Below, piece by piece: positions 1 to 30,982 of a DNA stretch of 30,982 bases. The DNA comes from Neocallimastix lanati (nom. inval.) (Eukaryota > Neocallimastigomycota > Neocallimastigomycetes > Neocallimastigales > Neocallimastigaceae), in assembly GCA_016946835.1 (NCBI GenBank), contig JACVTC010000413.1:1-30982 (forward strand), written 5' to 3'. Positions within the stretch are counted from its first letter, which is position 1, and every line of letters starts with the position of its first letter. The notes beneath the pieces are model-generated. The model was not told the origin of the DNA, did no database searches, and saw only the letters and a program-made list of their open reading frames with translations. The translations under genes were made by a program, and so were the position numbers.

Positions 1-193
1 ATATTTAATTGTTAATTAATTATTTCATTTTCAGTTGAATAATAATTCATAAATTTAATTTTTATCTCCATAATTATTTACAAATTTATTTTTAAAAATT
101 TTTTTCATAAATACTACATAAAAACAAAAATTATTTTATAACCATTTGATTTTTAGTAGTACAAGATTTATTCTTAATCATAATTATAGGCAA

Positions 194-268
194 GCTCTGT
201 TAGCTCAGTCGGTCTAGAGCGTGGTGCTAATAACGCCAAGGTCGCAGGTTCGACCCCTGCACAGAGCA
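194..268 (+). tRNA. tRNA-Ile (AAT), D-loop variant
   Basis: Cytosolic isoleucine tRNA reading ATT and, after A34-to-inosine editing, ATC. Acceptor stem GCTCTGT/ACAGAGC with discriminator A; anticodon AAT at 229-231 in a seven-base loop; B box GGTTCGACCCC. This copy is 75 nt because of an extra C at 214 in the D loop (GGTCTAG where the other copies read GGTTAG). The D stem GCTC/GAGC still pairs, so it may work, but the variant is unique to the copy nearest the window edge and could be a sequencing error. It lies 16 bp before Lys-CTT on the same strand with no T4 between, so the two are probably transcribed together. CAA lies immediately upstream (191-193). Confidence 0.95.
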
Positions 269-284
269 AACTGAATGTAAAATT

Positions 285-357
285 GCCCGGCTAGCTCAAT
301 CGGTAGAGCGTGAGACTCTTAATCTCAAGGTTGTGGGTTCGACCCCCACGTTGGGCG
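285..357 (+). tRNA. tRNA-Lys (CTT)
   Basis: Lysine tRNA for AAG. Acceptor GCCCGGC/GTTGGGC with G-T wobble, discriminator G; anticodon CTT at 318-320 between stem TGAGA/TCTCA; B box GGTTCGACCCC; 73 nt. Second gene of an Ile-Lys pair. A T6 run at 361-366 is the likely pol III terminator of the pair. An inverted copy of the same pair is at 5878-6032, with the genes identical and the spacer different. Confidence 0.97.
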
Positions 358-1137
358 ATATTTTTTGGTAGTATTCTTTTAATCAAATAGCCTAAGTATA
401 TATAAATATTTTAATTAAACTACTTTTTAATGTATATATATATATATATATTTTAATTAAACTACTTTTAATATATATATATATAATATATATTTTAATT
501 AAAACTACTTTTTAATATATATATATGTTTTAATGATAAATCAATATTTATATATATAATAAATAATAAGTTATGACTAACCACTAGTTTCATAAATTAA
601 ATTTTAAATTTGAATTATATAATATATATATTTTTAATTTTATAAATTACATATATATATAATATTTTTCTTATTATATATATTTATATATATATTAATG
701 AAATATTAAATAAATTGTATATTGTTATTAATTGAAAATATTTAATATGATAACTATAATTTTATAACATTTAAAATTTTAATACAATAGAATTATTTTT
801 AATTTAAAATTAATTTGTCTAACGTTTATTTTGATATTAATATTTATTTTGATATTAAAATTTATTTTGAAATTAAAATTTACTAATATCTTAAAATAGA
901 TATTAATTATTATGAATTAACAAATTTTAAACTTAAAATAAGAAAATATGCTAATTTATTTAAATATATTGTTTAAGTTAACATATTTTCTTATTTTAAG
1001 AAAATATAAAAACAAAAAATAATAAATAATATATATATATATATATATATTTTTATCATAAGAATTTCCAAAAATTATTAAGTAATATAACGAGAAAAAA
1101 AAATTTAAAGCAGGAAAAAACGAAACCAGAAAGCGTA
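358..1137. other. Gene-free AT spacer (Lys-CTT to Lys-TTT)
   Basis: No gene seen. Holds three diverged copies of an attttaattaaa-ctac block separated by TA runs (about 405-530), three copies of a 16-bp tttattttgatattaa-like unit (about 825-880), a perfect 19-bp inverted repeat (932-1000), and a purine-rich leader just before Lys-TTT. Copies at 10586-11365, 19131-19910 and 29359-30138. Confidence 0.9.
932..1000. repeat. Perfect 19-bp inverted repeat, 31-bp loop
   Basis: Arm 932-950 (cttaaaataagaaaatatg) is the exact reverse complement of 982-1000; pairing ends at both sides. Could form a hairpin in RNA or a cruciform. Present in all four units (11160-11228, 19705-19773, 29933-30001). Confidence 0.85.
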
Positions 1138-1210
1138 GCCCTGTTAGCTCAGTTGGTAGAGCGTGCGGCTTTTAACCGCAAGGTCGGGGGTTCGAGCCCC
1201 CCATAGGGCG
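1138..1210 (+). tRNA. tRNA-Lys (TTT)
   Basis: Lysine tRNA for AAA. Acceptor GCCCTGT/ATAGGGC, discriminator G; anticodon TTT at 1171-1173 with stem TGCGG/CCGCA; B box GGTTCGAGCCC. Only 2 bp separate it from Asn-GTT, with no room for a terminator, so the two must share a primary transcript or Asn must start inside this gene. The 5' flank (about 1107-1137) is purine-rich and clearly less AT-rich than the rest of the spacer. Confidence 0.97.
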
Positions 1211-1212
1211 TA

Positions 1213-1286
1213 GCTCTTATGGCGCAATTGGCTAGCGCGTTCGGCTGTTAACCGAGAGGTTGGTGGTTCAAGCCCACCTAGGAGCG
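1213..1286 (+). tRNA. tRNA-Asn (GTT)
   Basis: Asparagine tRNA. Acceptor GCTCTTA/TAGGAGC, discriminator G; anticodon GTT at 1247-1249; B box GGTTCAAGCCC; 74 nt. Second gene of the Lys-Asn pair. Downstream T3-C-T6 (1287-1296) is the likely terminator. Confidence 0.97.
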
Positions 1287-1356
1287 TTTCTTTTTTATTA
1301 TTTTCATGAAATAATATTGGTATTATTAATTTTTTACAATTTAAAGCACTAAATTA

Positions 1357-1362
<6 letters not shown>

Positions 1363-1400
<38 letters not shown>
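1363..1400. repeat. T38 homopolymer
   Basis: Thirty-eight consecutive T. By count it has the same length in all four units: 11591-11628, 20136-20173 and 30364-30401. Confidence 0.95.
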
Positions 1401-1407
<7 letters not shown>

Positions 1408-1522
1408 ATATATTTATCATTGAATTAATAAATAATTTATTATTATTCATTGTATTTTATGAGATAAAAAAGATTTATATAAAAATATAAAAAATATAAA
1501 AAAAATAAAAAATATTAATATT

Positions 1523-1588
1523 AAAAATAAAAATAAAAATAAAAATAAAAATAAAAATAAAAATAAAAATAAAAATAAAAAATAAAAA
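1523..1588. repeat. (AAAAAT)n microsatellite
   Basis: About eleven hexamer copies with one slightly longer unit near the end. Copies at 11751-11816, 20296-20361 and 30524-30589. Confidence 0.9.
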
Positions 1589-1755
1589 TATTGTATTGCT
1601 ATTGACTATATTATTTATTAAAGTAAAATAATTATTAAATGTTGTCTTTTACGTAGTAAATTATTATACCATTATATTAAAATGAATAAAATAATTTATT
1701 TTATATTTTACTAACCTATAATTATTAATTTAAATAAAAAAAATAAGGTTCAAAA

Positions 1756-1828
1756 TGGAGAATCCGGGCGTCGATCCCGGTGCCTCTCGCATGCTAAGCG
1801 AGCGCTCTACCATTTGAGCTAATTCCCC
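1756..1828 (-). tRNA. tRNA-Ala (AGC)
   Basis: Alanine tRNA with A34. Acceptor GGGGAAT/ATTCTCC (G3-T70 present), the G-U pair that alanyl-tRNA synthetase recognises; discriminator A; anticodon complement at 1793-1795. The T loop begins with A54 (ATCGACG) instead of T54, a form known from many eukaryotic cytosolic tRNA-Ala genes. T4 (complement of 1752-1755) and a longer T run (complement of about 1736-1743) follow. A CAA lies 6-8 nt upstream of the 5' end on its strand. Confidence 0.97.
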
Positions 1829-2498
1829 TTCTTTGATAATATTTCTATGTTGTCTATACTTGTGGTACGAAGTAAATTTATAATTTTATTATCATTATTA
1901 TTGTTATTATTATCATTATTATCATTACTATCATTATTATCATTATTATTATTACTATCACTATTATTGTTATTATTGTTATAAATATTATTATAATTGT
2001 TATTAATATTATTATTATTTTTGTTAATATTATTATTACTAGTACTAATATTAATGTTATTATTATTTTTATTATTTAATTTTTGGTATAAGTCGTTTTT
2101 ATCTATTTAATTTTTTATCTAAATAAATTAAAATTGTAATTTTTATAATTTTTATTACTTTTAAGATTGTATTTAATTTTTATAATTTTTATTACTTTTA
2201 ATACTGTATTTATTTTTAATTATATAAAAGAAAAATCTAATATAAAATAAGCAAATAAATAATGTTAATAATTAATACTTAAATTTTACATAATAAATAA
2301 TATATTATATATATTATATATTATATATATTATATATTTTATGTATTTTATGTATTTTATGTATTCTATATATTCTATAATAAATCATATATCTAAAAAT
2401 TGTATTATTAAGTAAATAAATATTATTTTAAATATTATAAACTATTTCTATTTGACATATTCATTAAAGAAACAAAAAAAAAGAAAAAACCTAAAAAG
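1829..2498. other. Gene-free AT spacer (Ala to His)
   Basis: No gene seen. Begins with an interrupted trinucleotide tract of ATT, ATC, GTT and ACT units (about 1883-2085), then a 37-bp tandem duplication (2138-2174 and 2175-2211, nearly identical), then a TATAT and TGTATTTTA run around 2300-2380. Copies at 12057-12726 and 20602-21271; the first part also at 30830-30982. Confidence 0.9.
1883..2085. repeat. Interrupted trinucleotide tract (ATT/ATC/GTT)
   Basis: Keeps a three-base rhythm for about 200 bp, with C or G substitutions in one strand register. The interruptions are the same in all copies, so it is an old tract, not a fresh expansion. Unit 4 is cut inside it by the window end. Confidence 0.85.
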
Positions 2499-2571
2499 TG
2501 CCGTTCCCAGGATTCGAACCTGGGTCGAGTCGGCCACAACGACTTATACTAAACCACTATACGAGAACGGC
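2499..2571 (-). tRNA. tRNA-His (GTG)
   Basis: Histidine tRNA. Acceptor GCCGTTC/GAACGGC, discriminator A; anticodon complement CAC at 2535-2537; anticodon stem AGTCG/CGACT. The extra G-1 needed by eukaryotic tRNA-His is normally added after transcription; here a G also happens to be encoded just upstream (complement of 2572). T5 at the complement of 2493-2497 is the likely terminator. Solitary gene. Confidence 0.97.
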
Positions 2572-2923
2572 CAAAATCACTTTATTTATATAAGTTTGAA
2601 AAGTATAAATTCAATATAGATTAACATTAAATAATGGTAATTATTTTACTAACTTCATATTTATGTATAAAAAATTTCTTGACAATTTGATAATAATTTT
2701 AATTTAATAATTATTAGAAATCTGAATTTTGATAATAAATTTTCATTAAAATATTAAACATTATTAAAATTAATAATAATATTAATCTTTAATTTTTTTT
2801 TAATTTCATATTATTTTTATTATTAATGAATTTAATAAATAAATAAATATATATAGAAGTACTATTAAATGAATAAAAACTGAAAACGCATAAAAATTAA
2901 AAATTTAAAAAATTAAATAAAAA
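2572..2923. other. Gene-free AT spacer (His to Phe)
   Basis: Low-complexity AT with no clear tandem unit; no gene or RNA motif seen. Copies at 12800-13151 and 21345-21696. Confidence 0.85.
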
Positions 2924-2996
2924 TGCGACCTCCGTGGCTTGAACACGGGACCTTTAGATCTTCAGTCTAACGCTCTCCCAGCTGAGCTAAGGTCGC
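2924..2996 (-). tRNA. tRNA-Phe (GAA)
   Basis: Phenylalanine tRNA. Acceptor GCGACCT/AGGTCGC, discriminator A; anticodon complement TTC at 2961-2963, stem TTAGA/TCTAA; T arm around GTGTTCAAGCC, a B box that departs slightly from GGTTCGANNCC. It follows Tyr by 11 bp on the same strand; that spacer has T3 runs but no T4. T5 after the gene (complement of 2919-2923) would end a Tyr-Phe transcript. Confidence 0.97.
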
Positions 2997-3007
2997 TAAA
3001 TTTTAAA

Positions 3008-3092
3008 TCCTTCGAACCGGAGTCGAACCAGTGACATGTTGATTACTATATAATTCTACAGTCAACCGCTCTACCAACTGAGCTATCGAAGG
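3008..3092 (-). tRNA. tRNA-Tyr (GTA) with 12-nt intron
   Basis: Tyrosine tRNA with the eukaryotic/archaeal C1-G72 identity pair (acceptor CCTTCGA/TCGAAGG, discriminator A). Anticodon complement TAC at 3057-3059. Between stem halves GTTGA and TCAAC lie 19 nt instead of 7, giving a 12-nt intron at 3044-3055 after position 37, the canonical nuclear place. It is the only intron seen in the unit. The 5' flank reads ACAAGAT up to the first base, a possible start-site element shared with Glu and Pro. First gene of the Tyr-Phe pair. Confidence 0.97.
3044..3055 (-). other. tRNA-Tyr intron (12 nt, AT-only apart from one G)
   Basis: Follows G37 of the tRNA; removal restores a seven-base anticodon loop and a 73-nt tRNA. 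Copies at 13272-13283 and 21817-21828. Confidence 0.9.
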
Positions 3093-3896
3093 ATCTTGTA
3101 AAATTATGCCAGAGAACCAATATAAAATATACTTATTATATGTTAAACATAAAACTCTAGATTTTTAAAGAATATATTTTAATATATATCATAAAATGGA
3201 TACAATTTAATGGTTTAATAATATCATTAATAAATATTTATATTTTAATTAAAAAATTATAATTAAGTACTTTAATTTATAAATTTATATATTATATTAA
3301 AAAAAAAAAAAAATTTTTAGAAATTTAATTAAAATATTTTTATTAAATTAATTAATAGGTTTATATATAAATATAATATCATGAATTATAAATAGCTATA
3401 AAAATAGATAAATTTTTTATAATTGAAAATATTACTATTTTCTATATTGTATTTTATAAGTATTAATATTATTTATGAATTTTAATTAAAATATTTATTA
3501 TATAATTATATATTGATATACACATTTCTTTATATTGTAATTAAAACTTAAATACATTATTATAATTATTTTATGTCTTTGTTTTTATTATTTTTTTTTA
3601 AAATATTTATTTATATTTTTAATTTTTCGTTATTTATTATTTTTGATTATCATAACTTTTATTATTAATTTAAGAATTTTTAAAATTTCGTCTAATACTT
3701 TAAAAATTGCTTACATATATATTTTATTATAACTAAATAAAAAATAAATAAAATATAAATTATAAATAATATATAACATTTTTATATCTTAATTTATCAT
3801 TATCATTAAATCATTTATTATTTGTATTAATAGAAATAAAAAAATAAAAATAAAAAAAAAAGAACGAAATATTGATACCAAAATTTAGTAAAAAAG
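3093..3896. other. Gene-free AT spacer (Tyr to Leu-AAG)
   Basis: No gene seen. Starts with a slightly GC-richer 25-bp stretch in the 5' flank of Tyr (tatgccagagaacc near 3105), then plain AT sequence with an A15 run near 3299-3313 (A14 in unit 2) and AAAAAT-like runs near 3840-3860. Copies at 13321-14123 and 21866-22669. Confidence 0.85.
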
Positions 3897-3979
3897 TGAA
3901 CAGAGTGGGATTCGAACCCACGCCTACGAATAGATCACGGCCTTAACGTGACGCCTTAGACCAACTCGGCCATCTGTCC
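3897..3979 (-). tRNA. tRNA-Leu (AAG)
   Basis: Leucine tRNA with A34, 83 nt, type II with a long variable arm. Acceptor GGACAGA/TCTGTTC with one G-T pair, discriminator A; anticodon complement CTT at 3942-3944, stem TCACG/CGTGA. T6 after the gene (complement of 3890-3895). Solitary. Confidence 0.97.
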
Positions 3980-4211
3980 AAGTTAATAATTTTTAATTGA
4001 AATTTTCTTTTCTACCAATACTAAATTATCATTATATGATAATAATGTTATCAATGATATATACTATGCTAAAATTATTAACTAAATAATATAAATAGTA
4101 AATAGTGCAATTAATCATAATCAATTTTAATTTTATTGGTAAATAATATATATGTATTTAAATTTTAATATACTTTAATCAAAATATAGAAAAAAAAAAG
4201 ATCAAAAGTAA

Positions 4212-4283
4212 TTCCGCATCGGGGAATCGAACCCCGGCCGCCACGGTGAAAGCGTGGAATCCTAGCCACTGGACCAATGCGGA
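4212..4283 (-). tRNA. tRNA-Glu (TTC)
   Basis: Glutamate tRNA, 72 nt. Acceptor TCCGCAT/ATGCGGA, discriminator A; anticodon complement GAA at 4248-4250, stem CCACG/CGTGG; B box GGTTCGATTCC. The 5' flank on its strand reads ACAAGA up to the first base. A T4 (complement of 4204-4207) and a T10 further down can terminate it. Confidence 0.97.
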
Positions 4284-4450
4284 TCTTGTTATTTTAAACT
4301 TTCATTTCTTGCTTTTTTATTATATCTTTGTAGTACAAAATTTTTCAATAGGTTAGGATTATTAATTTTATTATTAATACTATTAAATTATTAAATTATT
4401 AATATTACTAAATTGTTACATTTTTTCTTAAATTTTATATAATTAAACTT

Positions 4451-4530
4451 TACATTATTTAAATTAATTGTTTAAAGTTATTTATTAATATACATTATTT
4501 AAATTAATTGTTTAAAGTTATTTATTAATA
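4451..4530. repeat. Perfect 40-bp tandem duplication
   Basis: Two adjacent identical 40-bp copies, 4451-4490 and 4491-4530. Also at 14678-14757 and 23224-23303. Confidence 0.9.
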
Positions 4531-5217
4531 TCTTTTCATTTTTTTTCTTATTTAAATTTTTATTTATCTAGTATTATTTTATTAATATTTTTATTTTTTC
4601 TTTTTTTTTTTTATTTTTTAATTTTCTTTTTTCATTTTTGTCTTTATTTAATAAATAATATTTTTCAAGTTAATTGTAATACTTAAAAGTGAATTTGTTC
4701 GATTCAATATAATCTTAGCAAAACTTCTAAATATTATTTATAATATTAATAAACTAATATATATGCATTTCAATGTACTTAATTTAATATTTATTATTAA
4801 TAATAAATAATTATTTTTAATTTTATTTCATTCTTAAATTAGTTTTGAAAATAACAAATATATATATATATATATTACTATTATTTTATAATGAAAAAAA
4901 AAAGAAAAAAAAAAAGTTAAAAAGTTAAATTAATATTAAAATATTATAAATTGTGAAAATTTTATATTTTATTTATTTATTTTATACTTTTAAGTTTAGT
5001 TATTAAATTTTAATTTACCTTATTTTTAATTTAGTTTTAGTTTTTCTGTTTGATTGTTCCATTATCTTCAAAAGTTTTTATAAGCTATTTTAATATTAAA
5101 TATTATATATAAATTAAAATAAAATTAACAGTTATTTATTTATTAAAATTATTTCCAATAAGTTTATTTAATTTCTTAAAATACTAAATTTTAATTTTTA
5201 ATTATTTTTAAACATTT

Positions 5218-5232
5218 ATATTATATATTAAT
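5218..5232 (+). repeat. 15-bp direct repeat, left edge of the length variant
   Basis: atattatatattaat, repeated at 6899-6913. Unit 2 has a single copy (15445-15459) joining the two flanks; unit 3 has both (23991-24005 and 25672-25686). Confidence 0.95.
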
Positions 5233-5407
5233 AAATATATTATTATTTAATTTAATAAATATATAATATATATTTAATTAATATATCTATTCAATTAATA
5301 TATCTATTTAATTGAAGTGATATTGATAATTTTATAAATAATTTATAAATATTTTATATTGTAAATTATTATACAATATAGAAAATTTTGAAAAATTTTG
5401 TCAGATT

Positions 5408-5481
5408 GATTTCGTGGTGTAGTCGGTTATCACGTCTGTCTAACACACAGACGGTCCCCGGTTCGAATCCGGGCGAAATCA
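5408..5481 (+). tRNA. tRNA-Val (AAC), copy a
   Basis: Valine tRNA with A34. Acceptor GATTTCG/CGAAATC, discriminator A; anticodon AAC at 5442-5444, stem TCTGT/ACAGA; B box GGTTCGAATCC. Identical to the Val gene at 7095-7168, with identity reaching only about 2 bp beyond each end. It leads Ser-AGA by 6 bp with no T4 between. It lies in the block missing from the short unit. Confidence 0.97.
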
Positions 5482-5487
5482 TTATTT

Positions 5488-5569
5488 GACAGCATGTCCG
5501 AGTGGTTAAGGAGTGTGACTAGAAATCACATAGGCTCTGCCTGCGCAGGTTCAAGTCCTGCTGCTGTCG
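5488..5569 (+). tRNA. tRNA-Ser (AGA)
   Basis: Serine tRNA with A34, 82 nt with long variable arm. Acceptor GACAGCA/TGCTGTC, discriminator G; anticodon AGA at 5521-5523, stem TGTGA/TCACA; B box GGTTCAAGTCC. The only serine gene in the array, and found only in long units, so it has half the dose of most others. T5 at 5570-5574 terminates. Confidence 0.97.
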
Positions 5570-5877
5570 TTTTTGCTTTATTTTTATTATAAAAATGCAA
5601 TTATACATTAAATTTTATATATTAAAAAACTCAAAAAAAAAAAAAAAAAGTTAATATTAAAATGCAATATGAAATTTTTAGAAATTGTTATTTTTTTTTT
5701 TTTTTTTTTTTAATTTTTTTATTTTTTATTTTATTTTTATTTTTTTTTTTTTGTTTTGTTTTTATTTATTTATTTATTTTTTTTTATTTTCATTTATTTA
5801 TTTGCATTTTTATTTTCTTTTTTATTTTTATTTTATTAAAAACAAAAACTAAAAACAAAAATTAAAATATAAAAAAG
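5570..5877. other. Gene-free AT spacer (Ser to Lys)
   Basis: Contains an A17 run (5633-5649) followed by more than 100 bp that is nearly pure T on this strand. The open frame at 5662-5865 is a by-product of that tract (see rejected). Between convergent gene pairs. Copy at 24343-24650. Confidence 0.9.
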
Positions 5878-5950
5878 CGCCCAACGTGGGGGTCGAACCC
5901 ACAACCTTGAGATTAAGAGTCTCACGCTCTACCGATTGAGCTAGCCGGGC
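5878..5950 (-). tRNA. tRNA-Lys (CTT), inverted copy
   Basis: Exact reverse complement of the Lys-CTT gene at 285-357; similarity stops within a couple of bases of the gene ends. Anticodon complement AAG at 5915-5917. Downstream of Ile on the same strand by 8 bp, with no T4 in the spacer. T6 (complement of 5871-5876) ends the pair. Absent from the short unit. Confidence 0.97.
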
Positions 5951-5958
5951 AAATGAAA

Positions 5959-6032
5959 TGCTCTGTGCAGGGGTCGAACCTGCGACCTTGGCGTTATTAG
6001 CACCACGCTCTAACCGACTGAGCTAACAGAGC
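5959..6032 (-). tRNA. tRNA-Ile (AAT), inverted copy
   Basis: Reverse complement of the normal 74-nt Ile-AAT gene (as at 10423 and 18968), without the extra C of the copy at 194. Anticodon complement ATT at 5996-5998. It leads the inverted Ile-Lys pair. Absent from the short unit. Confidence 0.97.
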
Positions 6033-6095
6033 TATTTTATCTTTATTTTGAAAAATATTTTTGAAATAGGGTATATTATTTAATATATTATATAA

Positions 6096-6206
6096 TATAT
6101 TATTTATTATTATTTATTATTATTTATTATTATTTATTATTATTTATTATTATTTATTATTATTTATTATTATTTATTATTATTTATTATTATTTATTAT
6201 TATTTA

Positions 6207-6254
<48 letters not shown>

Positions 6255-6282
6255 TATTATTATTTATTATTATTTATTATTA
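6096..6282. repeat. Decamer TATTTATTAT microsatellite with ATT core
   Basis: Ten-base period on both sides of a pure ATT run (about 6205-6250). Same length in unit 3 (about 24869-25055). Confidence 0.88.
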
Positions 6283-6601
6283 ATACTTAAATTTATAAAT
6301 TAGAAATATAATATAATACGCATATATTATTGTATTATGTAGTTTATACTATCAAAAAAATATTTAAATAAAATTATAAGTAATTTAAATATTTGTAATA
6401 TTATATTATTCTAATAAATTTAGAAATATTTAATTTTTATTTTATTTTTAGCAAAAAAAAATATATTTTAAGTAATAATATTAAAAAAAATTTTTTTATA
6501 ATATTTTGTAAGTATTAAAACGAATATTTTATTTTAATAAAAAAAAATCAAAAGTAAAGATACTAAAAAAAAAATACTATAAAAGAATTCATTATATATT
6601 A

Positions 6602-6602
6602 A

Positions 6603-6671
<69 letters not shown>

Positions 6672-6682
6672 AATAAATAAAT
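6602..6682. repeat. (AAT)n then (AAAT)n microsatellite
   Basis: About twenty AAT units pass directly into about five AAAT units. Copy at 25375-25455 with the same length. Confidence 0.9.
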
Positions 6683-7016
6683 ATTATTATTAAATTTTAT
6701 TAATCTATATCAAAGCAGTTGATAAATAATTATTAATTAATTAATAATTAATACGAAATATTAGAATTAAAATCTAAACTAGTCAAAGACTATGATTTTA
6801 TAAATTATATTGTAATATTATTATTTAATATTAAATATTGTGATTAATAATTTCATACTAAATTTAAATATAATTTTAGATTATATCAATATTCTAAAAT
6901 ATTATATATTAATGATTGAAATATTTTACTATGGGTAAAATACTTTAATTACTATTGTCTGAAAGCCTAAAAGGATCTAAGGAAAATAAAACAGGAATAT
7001 TAAAATTCTTAAATGC

Positions 7017-7090
7017 GGGCTGTTAGTTCAGTTGGATAGAACGCTTGACTACGGATCAAGAGGTCGCAGGTTCAAGTCCTGCATAGCTCG
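7017..7090 (+). tRNA. tRNA-Arg (ACG)
   Basis: Arginine tRNA with A34. Acceptor GGGCTGT/ATAGCTC with two G-T pairs, discriminator G; anticodon ACG at 7051-7053, stem CTTGA/TCAAG; B box GGTTCAAGTCC. Followed after exactly TTTT (7091-7094) by Val. The 5' flank (6955-6996) is a GC-elevated purine-rich stretch unlike the rest of the spacer. Confidence 0.97.
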
Positions 7091-7094
7091 TTTT

Positions 7095-7168
7095 GATTTC
7101 GTGGTGTAGTCGGTTATCACGTCTGTCTAACACACAGACGGTCCCCGGTTCGAATCCGGGCGAAATCA
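7095..7168 (+). tRNA. tRNA-Val (AAC), copy b
   Basis: Identical to 5408-5481. The gap to Arg is just TTTT, so either four T terminate Arg and Val starts within Arg, or the polymerase reads through. T8 at 7169-7176 is a strong terminator. Present in both long and short units. Confidence 0.97.
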
Positions 7169-7356
7169 TTTTTTTTACATCATTTTCTAGATATAAATTA
7201 AAAATGCTAAAAAAAAGAAAAAATTTAATATTTTTAATTTAATTATTATAGCAAATATTAATTTTTTGTTTCTCAAAATATTTTCGTTTCGTAAAAATAA
7301 AAGAACTAAAATGTACAATACATATAAATATATTTAGCTTTAGCAATAAAAAGAAC

Positions 7357-7439
7357 TGCCAAGAGTGAGGTTCGAACTCACGCCTCTTTCGAGACCGCAT
7401 CTTAAGTGCGGCGCCTTAGACCGACTCGGCCATCTTGGC
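7357..7439 (-). tRNA. tRNA-Leu (TAA)
   Basis: Leucine tRNA for TTA, 83 nt, type II. Acceptor GCCAAGA/TCTTGGC, discriminator A; anticodon complement TTA at 7402-7404, stem CCGCA/TGCGG; B box GAGTTCGAACC. T5 at the complement of 7348-7352. Opposes the Arg-Val pair tail to tail. Confidence 0.97.
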
Positions 7440-7705
7440 TAAATATAAGTTTATTTTCTTTTTAATTTGTTTTTAAGATCAGTTTCTTTTCATTTAATTA
7501 TTTTTTTAATTTAAAAAATTAATCTATAGCATATTATAATTTTATGGTACTATTAATGGAAAAATAAATTGATATATGTCTAAACGAACAAATAATAATA
7601 AAATTAATTATTAATGTTATAATAAATATAATTATATTAAGTATATGGATAAATTATATTTAATGATATAGTATAATATTATTAATAAAGATTATAAGTG
7701 AACTT

Positions 7706-7738
<33 letters not shown>

Positions 7739-8136
7739 TATATGTATTTATTTATTTATGCTTTTTCAGTTTTAAATTTTATAATTAATCTTATAATCTT
7801 ATAATCTTATAATTTGAAATACCCATAAAATAAATTAATTATAATAAAATGTAATAATAAAAAATATTTATATTTATAAGAATGCCAATGATTTTCTAAA
7901 GCATAAATAAAAAATATTTATTTTTAAATAATTATTATTATATAATTTTAATAAAAGATCAAATATAATAGCATTACTAAGTATGAATAATGAATAAAAT
8001 AGTAAATAAATAAAATATATAATAAAATAAAAATCTGTAACTAAAAATAATGTTGAAATAATTATGTTATTGATATATATTATATGTACTTAGGATAAGT
8101 CTTTCTTTTCAACAGAATTCGGAAAAAACAACTAAG
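7440..8136. other. Gene-free AT spacer (Leu-TAA to Gly), divergent
   Basis: No gene seen. Contains an AAT run (about 7708-7738), an aatcttat triplicate (about 7789-7815) and the purine-rich Gly leader (about 8110-8136). Copies at 15986-16682 and 26213-26909. Confidence 0.85.
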
Positions 8137-8207
8137 GCATTGATGGTTTAGTGGTATAATTACCGCCTGCCACGCGGTAGACCCGGGTTCGATTCCCGGT
8201 CAATGCA
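8137..8207 (+). tRNA. tRNA-Gly (GCC)
   Basis: Glycine tRNA, 71 nt. Acceptor GCATTGA/TCAATGC, discriminator A; anticodon GCC at 8169-8171, stem ACCGC/GCGGT; B box GGTTCGATTCC. Three T, too few for a normal terminator, separate it from Thr. The 5' flank holds GGAAAAAACAA at 8121-8131, with CAA 6-8 nt before the gene. Confidence 0.97.
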
Positions 8208-8210
8208 TTT

Positions 8211-8283
8211 GCCTTCATGGCTCAGTCGGCAGAGCATCCCCCTAGTAAGGGGAAGGTCATCGGTTCGATTCCGATTGAAGGCA
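8211..8283 (+). tRNA. tRNA-Thr (AGT)
   Basis: Threonine tRNA with A34. Acceptor GCCTTCA/TGAAGGC, discriminator A; anticodon AGT at 8244-8246, stem TCCCC/GGGGA; B box GGTTCGATTCC. Second gene of the Gly-Thr pair. T5 at 8287-8291, then a T15 tract. Confidence 0.97.
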
Positions 8284-8879
8284 TTATTTTTATTTTATTT
8301 TTTTTTTTTTTTAATTTCAAAAAGTAATATATAAATTAAATTTTTAATAATTATTGCATTTCATCAGTGTATATGTTAATTTACAAAATTAGAAAAGTTG
8401 AATTTCATCTTATAATATTTTAACTTTTACATTTAATTAAATTATTTATAATGTTTTAACTTTCACATTTAATTAAATTATTTACAGTTTTAATTTATGT
8501 TCTATACAAGGAATTATTATTTATTACGATATTTTTTTTTTTTTTTTTTATCTATTATGAATTAAATGATTTTCACACTAATATTTAAATAAATAAATAA
8601 TTAATTACGCAATTATTAAAGTTAACATATACTTTTTTAAAATAAAAATAAATAAAATAATAAATATAAATATATATATATATTTATAATTATTATATAA
8701 TATATTTTAAACTTAAATATTACTAAATTTTTTAATTTAAATCAAAATTTCATTTTAACTTTAAATTGTATATTTGATATTAATTTAAAAATATCAAATG
8801 ATAAAATCAAAATAAATTTTATTTTCTATATTTTTATGGGGTTGTTAGTTGTTTAAAAATAAATTTAAAAACAAGATAA
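8284..8879. other. Gene-free AT spacer (Thr to Pro)
   Basis: No gene seen. T15 tract after Thr (T14 in unit 2), a 36-bp tandem duplication (8418-8453 and 8454-8488, two or three mismatches), and a T18 run near 8532 of the same length in all copies. Copies at 16830-17424 and 27057-27652. Confidence 0.85.
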
Positions 8880-8951
8880 GGCTCATTGGTCTAGTAGTAT
8901 GATTCTCGCTTTGGGTGCGAGAGGTCCCGGGTTCAATTCCCGGATGAGCCC
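8880..8951 (+). tRNA. tRNA-Pro (TGG)
   Basis: Proline tRNA, 72 nt. Acceptor GGCTCAT/ATGAGCC, discriminator C; anticodon TGG at 8912-8914, stem CTCGC/GCGAG; B box GGTTCAATTCC. The 5' flank reads ACAAGATAA up to the first base. T6 at 8955-8960. Proline is the only member of the usual A34 group that appears here with another anticodon. Confidence 0.97.
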
Positions 8952-21769: not shown

Positions 21770-21780
21770 TAAATTTTAAA

Positions 21781-21865
21781 TCCTTCGAACCGGAGTCGAA
21801 CCAGTGACATGTTGATTACTATATAATTCTACAGTCAACCGCTCTACCAACTGAGCTATCGAAGG
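21781..21865 (-). tRNA. tRNA-Tyr (GTA) with intron, unit 3
   Basis: No difference seen from 3008-3092; intron at 21817-21828. Confidence 0.97.
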
Positions 21866-22669: not shown

Positions 22670-22752
22670 TGAACAGAGTGGGATTCGAACCCACGCCTAC
22701 GAATAGATCACGGCCTTAACGTGACGCCTTAGACCAACTCGGCCATCTGTCC
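22670..22752 (-). tRNA. tRNA-Leu (AAG), unit 3
   Basis: No difference seen from 3897-3979. Confidence 0.97.
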
Positions 22753-22984
22753 AAGTTAATAATTTTTAATTGAAATTTTCTTTTCTACCAATACTAAATT
22801 ATCATTATATGATAATAATGTTATCAATGATATATACTATGCTAAAATTATTAACTAAATAATATAAATAGTAAATAGTGCAATTAATCATAATCAATTT
22901 TAATTTTATTGGTAAATAATATATATGTATTTAAATTTTAATATACTTTAATCAAAATATAGAAAAAAAAAAGATCAAAAGTAA

Positions 22985-23056
22985 TTCCGCATCGGGGAAT
23001 CGAACCCCGGCCGCCACGGTGAAAGCGTGGAATCCTAGCCACTGGACCAATGCGGA
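22985..23056 (-). tRNA. tRNA-Glu (TTC), unit 3
   Basis: No difference seen from 4212-4283. Confidence 0.97.
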
Positions 23057-24180
23057 TCTTGTTATTTTAAACTTTCATTTCTTGCTTTTTTATTATATCT
23101 TTGTAGTACAAAATTTTTCAATAGGTTAGGATTATTAATTTTATTATTAATACTATTAAATTATTAAATTATTAATATTACTAAATTGTTACATTTTTTC
23201 TTAAATTTTATATAATTAAACTTTACATTATTTAAATTAATTGTTTAAAGTTATTTATTAATATACATTATTTAAATTAATTGTTTAAAGTTATTTATTA
23301 ATATCTTTTCATTTTTTTTCTTATTTAAATTTTTATTTATCTAGTATTATTTTATTAATATTTTTATTTTTTCTTTTTTTTTTTTATTTTTTAATTTTCT
23401 TTTTTCATTTTTGTCTTTATTTAATAAATAATATTTTTCAAGTTAATTGTAATACTTAAAAGTGAATTTGTTCGATTCAATATAATCTTAGCAAAACTTC
23501 TAAATATTATTTATAATATTAATAAACTAATATATATGCATTTCAATGTACTTAATTTAATATTTATTATTAATAATAAATAATTATTTTTAATTTTATT
23601 TCATTCTTAAATTAGTTTTGAAAATAACAAATATATATATATATATATTACTATTATTTTATAATGAAAAAAAAAAGAAAAAAAAAAAGTTAAAAAGTTA
23701 AATTAATATTAAAATATTATAAATTGTGAAAATTTTATATTTTATTTATTTATTTTATACTTTTAAGTTTAGTTATTAAATTTTAATTTACCTTATTTTT
23801 AATTTAGTTTTAGTTTTTCTGTTTGATTGTTCCATTATCTTCAAAAGTTTTTATAAGCTATTTTAATATTAAATATTATATATAAATTAAAATAAAATTA
23901 ACAGTTATTTATTTATTAAAATTATTTCCAATAAGTTTATTTAATTTCTTAAAATACTAAATTTTAATTTTTAATTATTTTTAAACATTTATATTATATA
24001 TTAATAAATATATTATTATTTAATTTAATAAATATATAATATATATTTAATTAATATATCTATTCAATTAATATATCTATTTAATTGAAGTGATATTGAT
24101 AATTTTATAAATAATTTATAAATATTTTATATTGTAAATTATTATACAATATAGAAAATTTTGAAAAATTTTGTCAGATT

Positions 24181-24254
24181 GATTTCGTGGTGTAGTCGGT
24201 TATCACGTCTGTCTAACACACAGACGGTCCCCGGTTCGAATCCGGGCGAAATCA
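24181..24254 (+). tRNA. tRNA-Val (AAC), copy a, unit 3
   Basis: No difference seen from 5408-5481; leads Ser by 6 bp. Confidence 0.97.
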
Positions 24255-24260
24255 TTATTT

Positions 24261-24342
24261 GACAGCATGTCCGAGTGGTTAAGGAGTGTGACTAGAAATC
24301 ACATAGGCTCTGCCTGCGCAGGTTCAAGTCCTGCTGCTGTCG
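24261..24342 (+). tRNA. tRNA-Ser (AGA), unit 3
   Basis: No difference seen from 5488-5569; the second and last serine gene of the window. Confidence 0.97.
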
Positions 24343-24650
24343 TTTTTGCTTTATTTTTATTATAAAAATGCAATTATACATTAAATTTTATATATTAAAA
24401 AACTCAAAAAAAAAAAAAAAAAGTTAATATTAAAATGCAATATGAAATTTTTAGAAATTGTTATTTTTTTTTTTTTTTTTTTTTAATTTTTTTATTTTTT
24501 ATTTTATTTTTATTTTTTTTTTTTTGTTTTGTTTTTATTTATTTATTTATTTTTTTTTATTTTCATTTATTTATTTGCATTTTTATTTTCTTTTTTATTT
24601 TTATTTTATTAAAAACAAAAACTAAAAACAAAAATTAAAATATAAAAAAG

Positions 24651-24723
24651 CGCCCAACGTGGGGGTCGAACCCACAACCTTGAGATTAAGAGTCTCACGC
24701 TCTACCGATTGAGCTAGCCGGGC
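24651..24723 (-). tRNA. tRNA-Lys (CTT), inverted copy, unit 3
   Basis: No difference seen from 5878-5950. Confidence 0.97.
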
Positions 24724-24731
24724 AAATGAAA

Positions 24732-24805
24732 TGCTCTGTGCAGGGGTCGAACCTGCGACCTTGGCGTTATTAGCACCACGCTCTAACCGACTGAGCTAAC
24801 AGAGC
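24732..24805 (-). tRNA. tRNA-Ile (AAT), inverted copy, unit 3
   Basis: No difference seen from 5959-6032. Confidence 0.97.
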
Positions 24806-24979
24806 TATTTTATCTTTATTTTGAAAAATATTTTTGAAATAGGGTATATTATTTAATATATTATATAATATATTATTTATTATTATTTATTATTATTTAT
24901 TATTATTTATTATTATTTATTATTATTTATTATTATTTATTATTATTTATTATTATTTATTATTATTTATTATTATTTA

Positions 24980-25027
<48 letters not shown>

Positions 25028-25375
25028 TATTATTATTTATTATTATTTATTATTAATACTTAAATTTATAAATTAGAAATATAATATAATACGCATATAT
25101 TATTGTATTATGTAGTTTATACTATCAAAAAAATATTTAAATAAAATTATAAGTAATTTAAATATTTGTAATATTATATTATTCTAATAAATTTAGAAAT
25201 ATTTAATTTTTATTTTATTTTTAGCAAAAAAAAATATATTTTAAGTAATAATATTAAAAAAAATTTTTTTATAATATTTTGTAAGTATTAAAACGAATAT
25301 TTTATTTTAATAAAAAAAAATCAAAAGTAAAGATACTAAAAAAAAAATACTATAAAAGAATTCATTATATATTAA

Positions 25376-25444
<69 letters not shown>

Positions 25445-25789
25445 AATAAATAAATATTATTATTAAATTTTATTAATCTATATCAAAGCAGTTGATAAAT
25501 AATTATTAATTAATTAATAATTAATACGAAATATTAGAATTAAAATCTAAACTAGTCAAAGACTATGATTTTATAAATTATATTGTAATATTATTATTTA
25601 ATATTAAATATTGTGATTAATAATTTCATACTAAATTTAAATATAATTTTAGATTATATCAATATTCTAAAATATTATATATTAATGATTGAAATATTTT
25701 ACTATGGGTAAAATACTTTAATTACTATTGTCTGAAAGCCTAAAAGGATCTAAGGAAAATAAAACAGGAATATTAAAATTCTTAAATGC

Positions 25790-25863
25790 GGGCTGTTAGT
25801 TCAGTTGGATAGAACGCTTGACTACGGATCAAGAGGTCGCAGGTTCAAGTCCTGCATAGCTCG
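25790..25863 (+). tRNA. tRNA-Arg (ACG), unit 3
   Basis: No difference seen from 7017-7090. Confidence 0.97.
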
Positions 25864-25867
25864 TTTT

Positions 25868-25941
25868 GATTTCGTGGTGTAGTCGGTTATCACGTCTGTC
25901 TAACACACAGACGGTCCCCGGTTCGAATCCGGGCGAAATCA
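25868..25941 (+). tRNA. tRNA-Val (AAC), copy b, unit 3
   Basis: No difference seen from 7095-7168; gap to Arg again TTTT. Confidence 0.97.
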
Positions 25942-26129
25942 TTTTTTTTACATCATTTTCTAGATATAAATTAAAAATGCTAAAAAAAAGAAAAAATTTA
26001 ATATTTTTAATTTAATTATTATAGCAAATATTAATTTTTTGTTTCTCAAAATATTTTCGTTTCGTAAAAATAAAAGAACTAAAATGTACAATACATATAA
26101 ATATATTTAGCTTTAGCAATAAAAAGAAC

Positions 26130-26212
26130 TGCCAAGAGTGAGGTTCGAACTCACGCCTCTTTCGAGACCGCATCTTAAGTGCGGCGCCTTAGACCGACTC
26201 GGCCATCTTGGC
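26130..26212 (-). tRNA. tRNA-Leu (TAA), unit 3
   Basis: No difference seen from 7357-7439. Confidence 0.97.
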
Positions 26213-26478
26213 TAAATATAAGTTTATTTTCTTTTTAATTTGTTTTTAAGATCAGTTTCTTTTCATTTAATTATTTTTTTAATTTAAAAAATTAATCTAT
26301 AGCATATTATAATTTTATGGTACTATTAATGGAAAAATAAATTGATATATGTCTAAACGAACAAATAATAATAAAATTAATTATTAATGTTATAATAAAT
26401 ATAATTATATTAAGTATATGGATAAATTATATTTAATGATATAGTATAATATTATTAATAAAGATTATAAGTGAACTT

Positions 26479-26511
<33 letters not shown>

Positions 26512-26909
26512 TATATGTATTTATTTATTTATGCTTTTTCAGTTTTAAATTTTATAATTAATCTTATAATCTTATAATCTTATAATTTGAAATACCCATA
26601 AAATAAATTAATTATAATAAAATGTAATAATAAAAAATATTTATATTTATAAGAATGCCAATGATTTTCTAAAGCATAAATAAAAAATATTTATTTTTAA
26701 ATAATTATTATTATATAATTTTAATAAAAGATCAAATATAATAGCATTACTAAGTATGAATAATGAATAAAATAGTAAATAAATAAAATATATAATAAAA
26801 TAAAAATCTGTAACTAAAAATAATGTTGAAATAATTATGTTATTGATATATATTATATGTACTTAGGATAAGTCTTTCTTTTCAACAGAATTCGGAAAAA
26901 ACAACTAAG

Positions 26910-26980
26910 GCATTGATGGTTTAGTGGTATAATTACCGCCTGCCACGCGGTAGACCCGGGTTCGATTCCCGGTCAATGCA
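26910..26980 (+). tRNA. tRNA-Gly (GCC), unit 3
   Basis: No difference seen from 8137-8207. Confidence 0.97.
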
Positions 26981-26983
26981 TTT

Positions 26984-27056
26984 GCCTTCATGGCTCAGTC
27001 GGCAGAGCATCCCCCTAGTAAGGGGAAGGTCATCGGTTCGATTCCGATTGAAGGCA
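26984..27056 (+). tRNA. tRNA-Thr (AGT), unit 3
   Basis: No difference seen from 8211-8283. Confidence 0.97.
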
Positions 27057-27652
27057 TTATTTTTATTTTATTTTTTTTTTTTTTTAATTTCAAAAAGTAA
27101 TATATAAATTAAATTTTTAATAATTATTGCATTTCATCAGTGTATATGTTAATTTACAAAATTAGAAAAGTTGAATTTCATCTTATAATATTTTAACTTT
27201 TACATTTAATTAAATTATTTATAATGTTTTAACTTTCACATTTAATTAAATTATTTACAGTTTTAATTTATGTTCTATACAAGGAATTATTATTTATTAC
27301 GATATTTTTTTTTTTTTTTTTTATCTATTATGAATTAAATGATTTTCACACTAATATTTAAATAAATAAATAATTAATTACGCAATTATTAAAGTTAACA
27401 TATACTTTTTTAAAATAAAAATAAATAAAATAATAAATATAAATATATATATATATTTATAATTATTATATAATATATTTTAAACTTAAATATTACTAAA
27501 TTTTTTAATTTAAATCAAAATTTCATTTTAACTTTAAATTGTATATTTGATATTAATTTAAAAATATCAAATGATAAAATCAAAATAAATTTTATTTTCT
27601 ATATTTTTATGGGGTTGTTAGTTGTTTAAAAATAAATTTAAAAACAAGATAA

Positions 27653-27724
27653 GGCTCATTGGTCTAGTAGTATGATTCTCGCTTTGGGTGCGAGAGGTCC
27701 CGGGTTCAATTCCCGGATGAGCCC
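27653..27724 (+). tRNA. tRNA-Pro (TGG), unit 3
   Basis: No difference seen from 8880-8951. Confidence 0.97.
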
Positions 27725-28077
27725 CTCTTTTTTAATTTTGACTTTTTATAATAGTTATTACTTTTATAAATTCATTTTTAAAATCTACTGATAATTAATA
27801 TCAGAATTTAAATAAAAAAGCGAAGCAAAAATATTTTGAAAAAAGGTAATAAATGTATTAAAATATTAATTTTATTCATAATTTTAGCAATATTTTATAA
27901 TTTAAATAATAAATATATATAAATATAAATAAATATCTAAAATATAATTAATTAATACAAATAAAGTAATAAATACTATCTTAAAATCATATATTAATAA
28001 TAAATTTAAACACTTATCAATTATATTAAATTGTAAGGTATACAAGAATATTATATATTTAATAATTTACTAAATAT

Positions 28078-28149
28078 GGTTCTATAGTGTAGCGGTTAGC
28101 ACATTGGACTTTGAATCCAATAACTCGAGTTCAAATCTCGATAGGACCT
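28078..28149 (+). tRNA. tRNA-Gln (TTG), unit 3
   Basis: No difference seen from 9305-9376. Confidence 0.96.
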
Positions 28150-28352
28150 AATTTTTAATTATATTTTTAACAATTTTTAACAATTTTAACAATTTTAAAA
28201 ATTACTAAATATTAATACATTAACTTTTATTTTTATCTTTATCTTTAGTTTTTTAGCATTTAATAATAATAATATTTTTTGTAAAAAAAAAAAAGAAAAT
28301 ATTCTAATAAAAATAAAATTATATTGTTAATAAAAAAAATGAAAAAGGCTTA

Positions 28353-28424
28353 CTCCCAGGCGGGGAATTGAACCCCGGTCTCCCGCGTGACAGGCGGGGA
28401 TACTCACCACTATACTACCTGGGA
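28353..28424 (-). tRNA. tRNA-Asp (GTC), unit 3
   Basis: No difference seen from 9580-9651. Confidence 0.97.
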
Positions 28425-29195
28425 TGGCTTTAATTATCTTTTGATCTTATTTTGTCATATACACTATGTCACCGAATTTTAAAGTATGATCATATAATTA
28501 AAGCATTTAATTAGAATTTAGAATTTCATTAAATAAAATATATTCAATATAAATTTATTTCAACATTTAAATCATGTTATACTTATTTAATTGTATTTTG
28601 TACTTAAATTTAATTGTATTTTGTACTTAATTTTAAAGATAAAGATTTTTATGAAAACTTAATTTTTTATTTTTATTATTTTAATAAATATATATAAATA
28701 TATATAAATTAAATATATAATATTTATAAATATTAAGAATTAATCAATAAAACATACTATAACATTGAAATTAAAATAAATATTATATTATTCAATTATT
28801 TAATATTATATAATCAAAAATGTATAATTCATTTTAATTATTTGCTTTTGACTTTTTTTTATTTTTATTTTTATTGCTTTCTTTTATTTTATTTATTATT
28901 TTATTTTATTTATTATTTTATTTTATTTATTATTTTATTTTATTTATTATTTTATTTTATTTATTATTTTTATTTTTAATATATTGTATTCGAGTTTAAA
29001 TAATATTTAATTGTTAATTAATTATTTCATTTTCAGTTGAATAATAATTCATAAATTTAATTTTTATCTCCATAATTATTTACAAATTTATTTTTAAAAA
29101 TTTTTTTCATAAATACTACATAAAAACAAAAATTATTTTATAACCATTTGATTTTTAGTAGTACAAGATTTATTCTTAATCATAATTATAGGCAA

Positions 29196-29269
29196 GCTCT
29201 GTTAGCTCAGTCGGTTAGAGCGTGGTGCTAATAACGCCAAGGTCGCAGGTTCGACCCCTGCACAGAGCA
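29196..29269 (+). tRNA. tRNA-Ile (AAT), unit 4
   Basis: Normal 74-nt form, so three of four forward Ile copies lack the extra C. Confidence 0.97.
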
Positions 29270-29285
29270 AACTGAATGTAAAATT

Positions 29286-29358
29286 GCCCGGCTAGCTCAA
29301 TCGGTAGAGCGTGAGACTCTTAATCTCAAGGTTGTGGGTTCGACCCCCACGTTGGGCG
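29286..29358 (+). tRNA. tRNA-Lys (CTT), unit 4
   Basis: No difference seen from 285-357. Confidence 0.97.
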
Positions 29359-30138
29359 ATATTTTTTGGTAGTATTCTTTTAATCAAATAGCCTAAGTAT
29401 ATATAAATATTTTAATTAAACTACTTTTTAATGTATATATATATATATATATTTTAATTAAACTACTTTTAATATATATATATATAATATATATTTTAAT
29501 TAAAACTACTTTTTAATATATATATATGTTTTAATGATAAATCAATATTTATATATATAATAAATAATAAGTTATGACTAACCACTAGTTTCATAAATTA
29601 AATTTTAAATTTGAATTATATAATATATATATTTTTAATTTTATAAATTACATATATATATAATATTTTTCTTATTATATATATTTATATATATATTAAT
29701 GAAATATTAAATAAATTGTATATTGTTATTAATTGAAAATATTTAATATGATAACTATAATTTTATAACATTTAAAATTTTAATACAATAGAATTATTTT
29801 TAATTTAAAATTAATTTGTCTAACGTTTATTTTGATATTAATATTTATTTTGATATTAAAATTTATTTTGAAATTAAAATTTACTAATATCTTAAAATAG
29901 ATATTAATTATTATGAATTAACAAATTTTAAACTTAAAATAAGAAAATATGCTAATTTATTTAAATATATTGTTTAAGTTAACATATTTTCTTATTTTAA
30001 GAAAATATAAAAACAAAAAATAATAAATAATATATATATATATATATATATTTTTATCATAAGAATTTCCAAAAATTATTAAGTAATATAACGAGAAAAA
30101 AAAATTTAAAGCAGGAAAAAACGAAACCAGAAAGCGTA

Positions 30139-30211
30139 GCCCTGTTAGCTCAGTTGGTAGAGCGTGCGGCTTTTAACCGCAAGGTCGGGGGTTCGAGCCC
30201 CCCATAGGGCG
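30139..30211 (+). tRNA. tRNA-Lys (TTT), unit 4
   Basis: No difference seen from 1138-1210. Confidence 0.97.
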
Positions 30212-30213
30212 TA

Positions 30214-30287
30214 GCTCTTATGGCGCAATTGGCTAGCGCGTTCGGCTGTTAACCGAGAGGTTGGTGGTTCAAGCCCACCTAGGAGCG
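30214..30287 (+). tRNA. tRNA-Asn (GTT), unit 4
   Basis: No difference seen from 1213-1286. Confidence 0.97.
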
Positions 30288-30357
30288 TTTCTTTTTTATT
30301 ATTTTCATGAAATAATATTGGTATTATTAATTTTTTACAATTTAAAGCACTAAATTA

Positions 30358-30408
<51 letters not shown>

Positions 30409-30756
30409 ATATATTTATCATTGAATTAATAAATAATTTATTATTATTCATTGTATTTTATGAGATAAAAAAGATTTATATAAAAATATAAAAAATATAA
30501 AAAAAATAAAAAATATTAATATTAAAAATAAAAATAAAAATAAAAATAAAAATAAAAATAAAAATAAAAATAAAAATAAAAAATAAAAATATTGTATTGC
30601 TATTGACTATATTATTTATTAAAGTAAAATAATTATTAAATGTTGTCTTTTACGTAGTAAATTATTATACCATTATATTAAAATGAATAAAATAATTTAT
30701 TTTATATTTTACTAACCTATAATTATTAATTTAAATAAAAAAAATAAGGTTCAAAA

Positions 30757-30829
30757 TGGAGAATCCGGGCGTCGATCCCGGTGCCTCTCGCATGCTAAGC
30801 GAGCGCTCTACCATTTGAGCTAATTCCCC
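30757..30829 (-). tRNA. tRNA-Ala (AGC), unit 4
   Basis: No difference seen from 1756-1828; last gene of the window. Confidence 0.97.
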
Positions 30830-30982
30830 TTCTTTGATAATATTTCTATGTTGTCTATACTTGTGGTACGAAGTAAATTTATAATTTTATTATCATTATT
30901 ATTGTTATTATTATCATTATTATCATTACTATCATTATTATCATTATTATTATTACTATCACTATTATTGTTATTATTGTTA

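Follow-up and report, generated by a model that had tools for sequence, protein, structure and literature searches.

Tandem units of up to 22 tRNA genes form a probable rDNA-like array in an anaerobic gut fungus

Ribosomal DNA (rDNA) arrays repeat a long multi-gene unit in many copies that evolve in concert, and they are the sole source of their products, the ribosomal RNAs (rRNAs) synthesized by RNA polymerase I (Pol I). Transfer RNA (tRNA) genes can also be organized as repeats, as in the 3.18-kb tandem repeat of Xenopus laevis, which has eight tRNA genes and, in both length and gene number, reaches approximately one third of the unit described here. In Entamoeba, 25 arrays have units of one to five tRNA genes, and complex short tandem repeats lie between the arrayed tRNA genes of E. 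histolytica and E. dispar, according to the accessible portion of the paper (PMC2652664). The passages available from a Phytophthora infestans study place nearly all 85 copies of the Val(AAC) and Ser(AGA) genes in one dimeric array (PMC9584435), and those from a Hydractinia study call tandem tRNA arrays unusual outside Entamoeba (PMC11067881). The present study concerns a 30,982-bp stretch of DNA (hereafter, the window) that constitutes the whole of contig JACVTC010000413.1 (C350) in a genome assembled into 762 contigs (199,045,447 bases). A sequence-only reading of the window had named Entamoeba as the best-known case of tandem tRNA arrays; Entamoeba arrays of one to five genes are indeed described, but the excerpts at hand document arrays in more taxa (P. 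infestans, human and Hydractinia). On sequence grounds, we propose that the window very likely belongs to an array, organized like rDNA, in which an anaerobic gut fungus keeps functional nuclear tRNA genes.

The array fills the window end to end, and C350 contains no flanking non-array DNA. ARAGORN identifies 67 tRNA genes on both strands, and Rfam RF00005 yields 67 matches above the gathering score (55.6 to 70.2 bits versus 29). Repeat copies begin at positions 1, 10230, 18775 and 29003 and delimit three complete units of 10,228, 8,545 and 10,228 bp with 22, 18 and 22 genes, respectively, followed by a partial fourth unit with five genes. The window units are 99.5-100% identical to unit 1, far beyond chance, and units 1 and 3 are 99.99% identical. 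A unit with intact tRNA genes is thus repeated head to tail, as is characteristic of a tandem tRNA gene array, and the repeat starts and both gene counts bear out the sequence-only reading in this respect. Its description of a 10.2-kb unit with 22 genes on both strands, present at least three times, fits units 1 and 3 but not unit 2, which is devoid of ~1.7 kb carrying the Val, Ser, Lys and Ile genes found at 5408-6032 in unit 1, so that the count of 22 is right for two of the three complete units. The 22 genes represent 19 kinds for 17 amino acids, with Ile, Lys(CTT) and Val present twice each, and Met, Trp and Cys genes are absent from the unit. The gene reported by ARAGORN as '???' (gtag) is Tyr(GTA) with an intron in our own reading of the output. 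The spacers show simple AT-rich repeats, as seen in the letters without repeat statistics, and G+C content is 10.2% in the unit 1 spacers and 17.7% in the whole window. No open reading frame (ORF) of at least 100 amino acids occurs in the 30,982-bp window. The features are listed below in window coordinates, with T4 denoting a run of four T.

1-10229, unstranded: unit 1, family A, 22 tRNA genes, 10,228 bp (ARAGORN, repeats)
10230-18774, unstranded: unit 2, short form, 18 tRNA genes, without the Val-Ser-Lys-Ile block, 8,545 bp (ARAGORN, repeats)
18775-29002, unstranded: unit 3, 22 tRNA genes (ARAGORN, repeats)
29003-30982, unstranded: beginning of unit 4 with 5 tRNA genes, truncated where the contig ends (ARAGORN, repeats)
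194-358, plus strand: Ile(AAT)-Lys(CTT) pair that may form a dimeric precursor, no intervening T4 (ARAGORN, terminator scan)
1138-1286, plus strand: Lys(TTT)-Asn(GTT) pair, genes 2 bp apart with no intervening T4 (ARAGORN, terminator scan)
1756-1828, minus strand: tRNA-Ala(AGC) (ARAGORN)
2499-2571, minus strand: tRNA-His(GTG) (ARAGORN, RF00005)
2924-3092, minus strand: Tyr(GTA, intron)-Phe(GAA) pair, 11-bp gap, transcribed strand without T4 between (ARAGORN, RF00005, own reading for Tyr)
3897-3979, minus strand: tRNA-Leu(AAG) (ARAGORN, RF00005)
4212-4283, minus strand: tRNA-Glu(TTC) (ARAGORN)
5408-6032, unstranded: four-gene block of Val(AAC) plus, Ser(AGA) plus, Lys(CTT) minus and Ile(AAT) minus, absent from unit 2 (ARAGORN)
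7017-7168, plus strand: Arg(ACG)-Val(AAC) pair, gap TTTT (ARAGORN)
7357-7439, minus strand: tRNA-Leu(TAA) (ARAGORN, RF00005)
8137-8283, plus strand: Gly(GCC)-Thr(AGT) pair, genes separated by TTT with no intervening T4 (ARAGORN)
8880-8951, plus strand: tRNA-Pro(TGG) (ARAGORN, RF00005)
9305-9376, plus strand: tRNA-Gln(TTG) (ARAGORN, RF00005)
9580-9651, minus strand: tRNA-Asp(GTC) (ARAGORN)

The array genes recur on 17 contigs, and the Ala(AGC) count gives at least 43 unit copies. Three unit families are distinguished, with lengths of ~10.2 kb (A), ~11.1 kb (B) and ~12.7 kb (C). A spacer probe, for which 40 of 3,112 candidates were scored, detects at least 28 near full-length copies of 98-100% identity on nine contigs (C350, C266, C160, C188, C304, C362, C353, C251 and C94); a 109-bp piece of C69 also matches the probe at 98%, but C69 has no unit match of at least 700 bp and no ARAGORN tRNA gene. 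Ten Ala(AGC) copies belong to family A (four on C350, five on C266 and one on the right part of C160) and 19 to family B (seven on C188, three each on C251, C304 and C353, two on C362 and one on C94), and the remaining 14 lie on the left part of C160 (one), C252 (four), C255 and C288 (two each) and C367, C492, C523, C548 and C734 (one each). Family assignment draws on examined sequence for A on C350, C266 and C160, B on C188, C94 and C304, and C on C252, C160 and C367 (C188, C94, C304, C252 and C367 in part), on the probe and spacing for C251, C353 and C362 (B) and on the 12.7-kb spacing for C255 and C288; C492, C523, C548 and C734 are provisional array contigs that show array genes at array spacing only. 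The 15 array contigs other than C94 and C160 sum to 506,904 bp, counted as whole contigs and not as the array proper. By our own estimate, approximately 800 array genes exist genome-wide (five gene counts of 43, 41, 38, 35 and 31, with a mean of 37.6, multiplied by 22). Within families A and B, pieces of at least 700 bp are 99-100% alike, except for a C304 piece at a retroelement (91.8%), and family C pieces are 99.5-99.9% alike. Many near-identical copies are therefore present, as concerted evolution of a tandem tRNA gene array entails.

Unit structure varies in places. An assignment of the 18-gene form to family C, made from one unit, was dropped; that unit is partly unreadable, and Ser(AGA) genes on contigs assigned to family C (two on C252, others on C288 and C734) indicate that at least some C units carry the four-gene block. 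C266 contains a 6.2-kb short unit without eight genes (21.8-28.1 kb), followed by a unit with no Lys(CTT) call behind Ile, and one Lys(CTT) gene of this contig has two mismatches. Ahead of the array, C266 1-2669 contains a degenerate tRNA-like stretch in our own reading of the letters.

What happens to the genes while the spacers diverge? Between one unit each of families A and B, the genes show 0 mismatches in 1,664 aligned positions and three gap columns in one Ile copy, whereas the spacers show 129 mismatches in 8,408 positions plus 1,167 gap columns, a rate that would predict ~25 gene mismatches. Between A and C, 18 comparable genes show 0 differences in 1,344 positions, with the Tyr intron included and the Ile copy taken from unit 2. 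Ten long spacers are 74.6% identical between these families versus 73.8% when shuffled (one shuffle each), with three spacers left out, one partly unreadable and two running round the stretch end. The gaps inside close gene pairs are conserved or nearly so between A and C, and only Ile-Lys is partly different. In the examined array stretches, 347 gene copies are exact and one differs by two bases (class of one to six mismatches), a count that is blind to insertions and deletions such as that in the first Ile gene of the window. Relative to its counterpart in unit 2, this gene (194-268) carries one additional base in the D-loop region. The genes are thus frozen while the spacers change between families, and the overall A/C spacer likeness is approximately at the shuffled level. 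We infer that the genes stay the same from one family to another through selection on the tRNAs, perhaps combined with conversion limited to the genes, and unequal exchange and gene conversion would hold the units alike within a family.

Instead of a single locus, the families might represent haplotypes or a number of separate loci, a possibility to which we assign somewhat less than an even chance and which would leave the genes arrayed and functional all the same. The aligned spacers of A and B differ by 1.5%, with many insertions and deletions in addition, and the stretches examined contain no contig that joins A to B. However, the 103-kb contig C160 carries family C from ~3.5 kb and family A from 93.5 kb to its end in the same orientation; the two stretches are ~80 kb apart, and the sequence examined covers the first 13.5 kb of the contig and everything from 70 kb onwards. 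Furthermore, the 288-kb contig C94 starts in family B and leaves the array at 16.9 kb (first 30 kb examined), and this array edge occurs once in the genome with up to three mismatches allowed. Multiplication of a few true copies by the assembler is very unlikely. Such an artefact would account for the many contigs that end inside the array and for the 99.99% identity of C350 units 1 and 3, but not for the 8.5-, 10.2-, 11.1- and 12.7-kb forms, the 6.2-kb unit of C266, the retroelement in C304 or the spacer divergence among A, B and C.

For at least five isoacceptors, no source other than the array was found. Whole-gene patterns for five isoacceptors, chosen from the 19 kinds, were searched genome-wide with up to three mismatches. 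Exact copies of Asp (38), Glu(TTC) (35), Ala(AGC) (43), Lys(TTT) (41) and Ser(AGA) (31) total 188, all on the 17 array contigs, and there are no other matches with these five anticodons in the genome at that threshold. The Glu(TTC) pattern also finds 14 three-mismatch places off the array, where the printed anticodon is CTC. A B-box pattern occurs at 2,328 places versus 322 for the reversed control. Sixty of 100 listed places, all on C1-C14 and chosen as tRNA-like, comprise ten ordinary tRNA genes, 12 '???' heads and 38 places without an ARAGORN call, and none of the ten dispersed genes (Ala-TGC, two Ala-CGC, two Thr-TGT, Thr-CGT, Gly-TCC, Glu-CTC, Val-TAC and Cys-GCA) has an array anticodon. 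A genome search with RF00005 scored 63 of 9,278 candidates. Two inspected copies of the '???' tRNA-like heads share a tail, as a tRNA-derived short interspersed element (SINE) would. The array itself is very unlikely to be a non-functional repeat or SINE family expanded from tRNA genes; tRNA-derived SINE-like elements seem to be present in the genome, but the gene bodies of the array are intact and almost invariant while the spacers drift, terminators are in place and no other source was found for the five isoacceptors. Off the array, C67 and C78 carry dispersed Asn(GTT)-Arg(TCT) gene pairs, and C555 (170-400 kb) contains a second cluster with a tRNA-Arg(TCT) gene every ~545 bp, of which seven copies lie in the 4 kb examined. 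Arg(TCT) has 68 matches genome-wide (up to three mismatches), 58 of them exact, and 37 of the 68 are on C555.

A T-run of at least four T starts within 7 nucleotides downstream of 16 of the 22 genes, versus 18.5% of 10-nucleotide spacer windows. The six genes that lack a T-run are the first members of close pairs, Ile-Lys (twice), Lys-Asn, Tyr-Phe, Val-Ser and Gly-Thr, and this position suggests that the pairs yield dimeric tRNA precursors. Such precursors have been reported for Schizosaccharomyces pombe, as indicated by a title cited in PMC9584435. Each unit would probably provide up to 22 RNA polymerase III (Pol III) genes as 16 transcripts, six of them dimeric. On C304, a Ty3-like long terminal repeat (LTR) retroelement, with a zinc-knuckle ORF followed by reverse transcriptase, RNase H and integrase, has inserted into the array at a site 9-14 bp upstream of an Ala gene, leaving a 5-bp target repeat (own reading); the break at this site is the insertion, and its interpretation as an array end was rejected. 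Yeast Ty3 targets Pol III start sites, and by analogy the position of the C304 element hints that the array Ala gene may be transcribed. A break at ~3.45 kb on C160, first taken as an array end, sits 13-15 bp upstream of an Arg gene, and an ORF at this break has a zinc-knuckle-like motif (own reading) and no Pfam match.

At other array edges, an ORF past the array on C94 matches a copia-type gag, and an ORF before the right array of C160 matches an integrase core. No host genes were identified beside the examined array edges, and it is the length of the contigs that points to a chromosomal placement. An independent episome or virus that bears tRNA genes is just as unlikely as a SINE family. 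A window contig that is all array without flanks, and the absence of an identified host gene beside the examined edges, would fit such an element, but the array meets other sequence with the gag and integrase ORFs on the 288- and 103-kb contigs and the window contains no ORF of at least 100 amino acids. The adjacent Gly-Thr gene pattern has 0 matches in viral contigs; its single prokaryotic match, on a Burkholderia contig, lies in a stretch without an ARAGORN tRNA gene and was taken as chance.

What is the biological role of the array? The codons decoded by its gene set are mainly NNU and NNC, together with AAA, GAA, CAA, CCA, UUA and AAG. Under conservative decoding they number 32 and account for 86% of the 1,954 codons in four dockerin ORFs. 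From this codon set, the array would probably serve bulk translation demand, supplying at least five isoacceptors, with dispersed genes supplying other anticodons. The view of the window as an rDNA-style locus, raised in the sequence-only reading, gains support from at least 43 units on 17 contigs, near-identity within families, frozen genes and exclusivity of all five isoacceptors searched. Its extension to a locus for the tRNA pool holds for these five isoacceptors but not for the whole pool, given the absence of Met, Trp and Cys genes, the presence of Asn(GTT) also outside the array and the dispersal of other genes. We tentatively envisage a split tRNA system, possible rather than probable, in which the array acts as an organiser and sole source of the high-demand isoacceptors (nearly all 19 kinds, but not Asn), dispersed genes encode complementary anticodons, and the organiser could make up a Pol III compartment of its own.

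Several observations weigh against the proposal of a functional, rDNA-like array. Exclusivity was searched to three mismatches for only five of the 19 kinds, and Asn(GTT) is not exclusive, as C78 carries an exact copy and C67 one with a single mismatch. The A/C Leu-Glu spacer is 82% identical versus 67% when shuffled, and blastn matches of 67-85% between A and C extend from the genes into their flanks. Six contigs (C255, C288, C492, C523, C548 and C734), with 29 of the 188 exact copies, are called array by gene spacing alone, the link of families A and C rests on the single contig C160, most array contigs end inside the array, and some retrieved stretches read N. In addition, T4 lies within 25 nucleotides upstream of five of the 22 genes and in 39.8% of 25-nucleotide spacer windows, and the 86% codon figure comes from four related genes and is an illustration, not a genome-wide value.

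The host is very probably an anaerobic gut fungus (Neocallimastigomycota), as the CBM_10 family and a GH6 dockerin ORF indicate. All 150 candidates scored, of 1,440 in the genome, matched the CBM_10 fungal dockerin family, and 14 control genomes gave no CBM_10 matches. PDB matches identify one dockerin ORF as a GH6 cellobiohydrolase; the N-terminal part of this ORF matches entries for endoglucanase 45A, which we take to be dockerins of Piromyces. Neighbouring fungal dockerin ORFs form clusters on C106, C279, C112 and C761, probably tandem cellulase gene families.

An rDNA-like array of this kind would mean that one repeating unit can bring together most of a tRNA set ready for translation and evolve like rDNA. 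The dosage of tRNAs would become a copy-number trait of the array, and array size may track growth or secretion load. The three families constitute a natural experiment on conversion and selection that freeze genes while spacers diverge, and retroelements drawn to Pol III genes may use the array as a landing site.

How does the array compare with known systems? It resembles rDNA in its long multi-gene unit, its many copies and their concerted evolution and differs in that the genes are Pol III tRNA genes. With Entamoeba, as far as the accessible text goes, it shares tandem tRNA units, copies that are uniform within an isolate and, probably, a large share of tRNA genes in arrays, but Entamoeba has 25 arrays of one to five genes, in contrast to one gene order of up to 22 here (PMC2652664); with 22 or 18 genes, the units exceed the Entamoeba type. 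P. infestans likewise has thousands of tRNA genes in tandem arrays, some with nearly identical copies, but the available sections describe monomeric, dimeric and trimeric units only (PMC9584435). The human tRNA variable number tandem repeat at 1q23.3 has a 7.3-kb unit with five genes on both strands and 9-43 copies per allele; five genes per unit contrast with 22 here, and the excerpt does not describe the repeat as the only source of an isoacceptor (PMC4041453). In the Hydractinia noncoding RNA arrays, by contrast, the copies are set apart by spacers that measure between some hundred and a few thousand nucleotides, and the portion consulted does not mention a 22-gene unit (PMC11067881). Nematostella and teleost fishes have tRNA clusters of fifty and more genes, for which repetition of a multi-gene unit is not stated in the passages seen (PMC2888827). 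In the open-licence PMC literature, the matches listed include nothing on tRNA arrays in anaerobic fungi or in fungi, and the tRNA passages seen of an anaerobic-fungus paper concern organelles only (PMC10978972). The units in the literature found, as far as its accessible passages show, hold at most five genes, in line with the sequence-only reading, in which no described array of this size was known. Tandem tRNA arrays are already known, and the unit reported here is the largest that we found described in the portions of that literature available.

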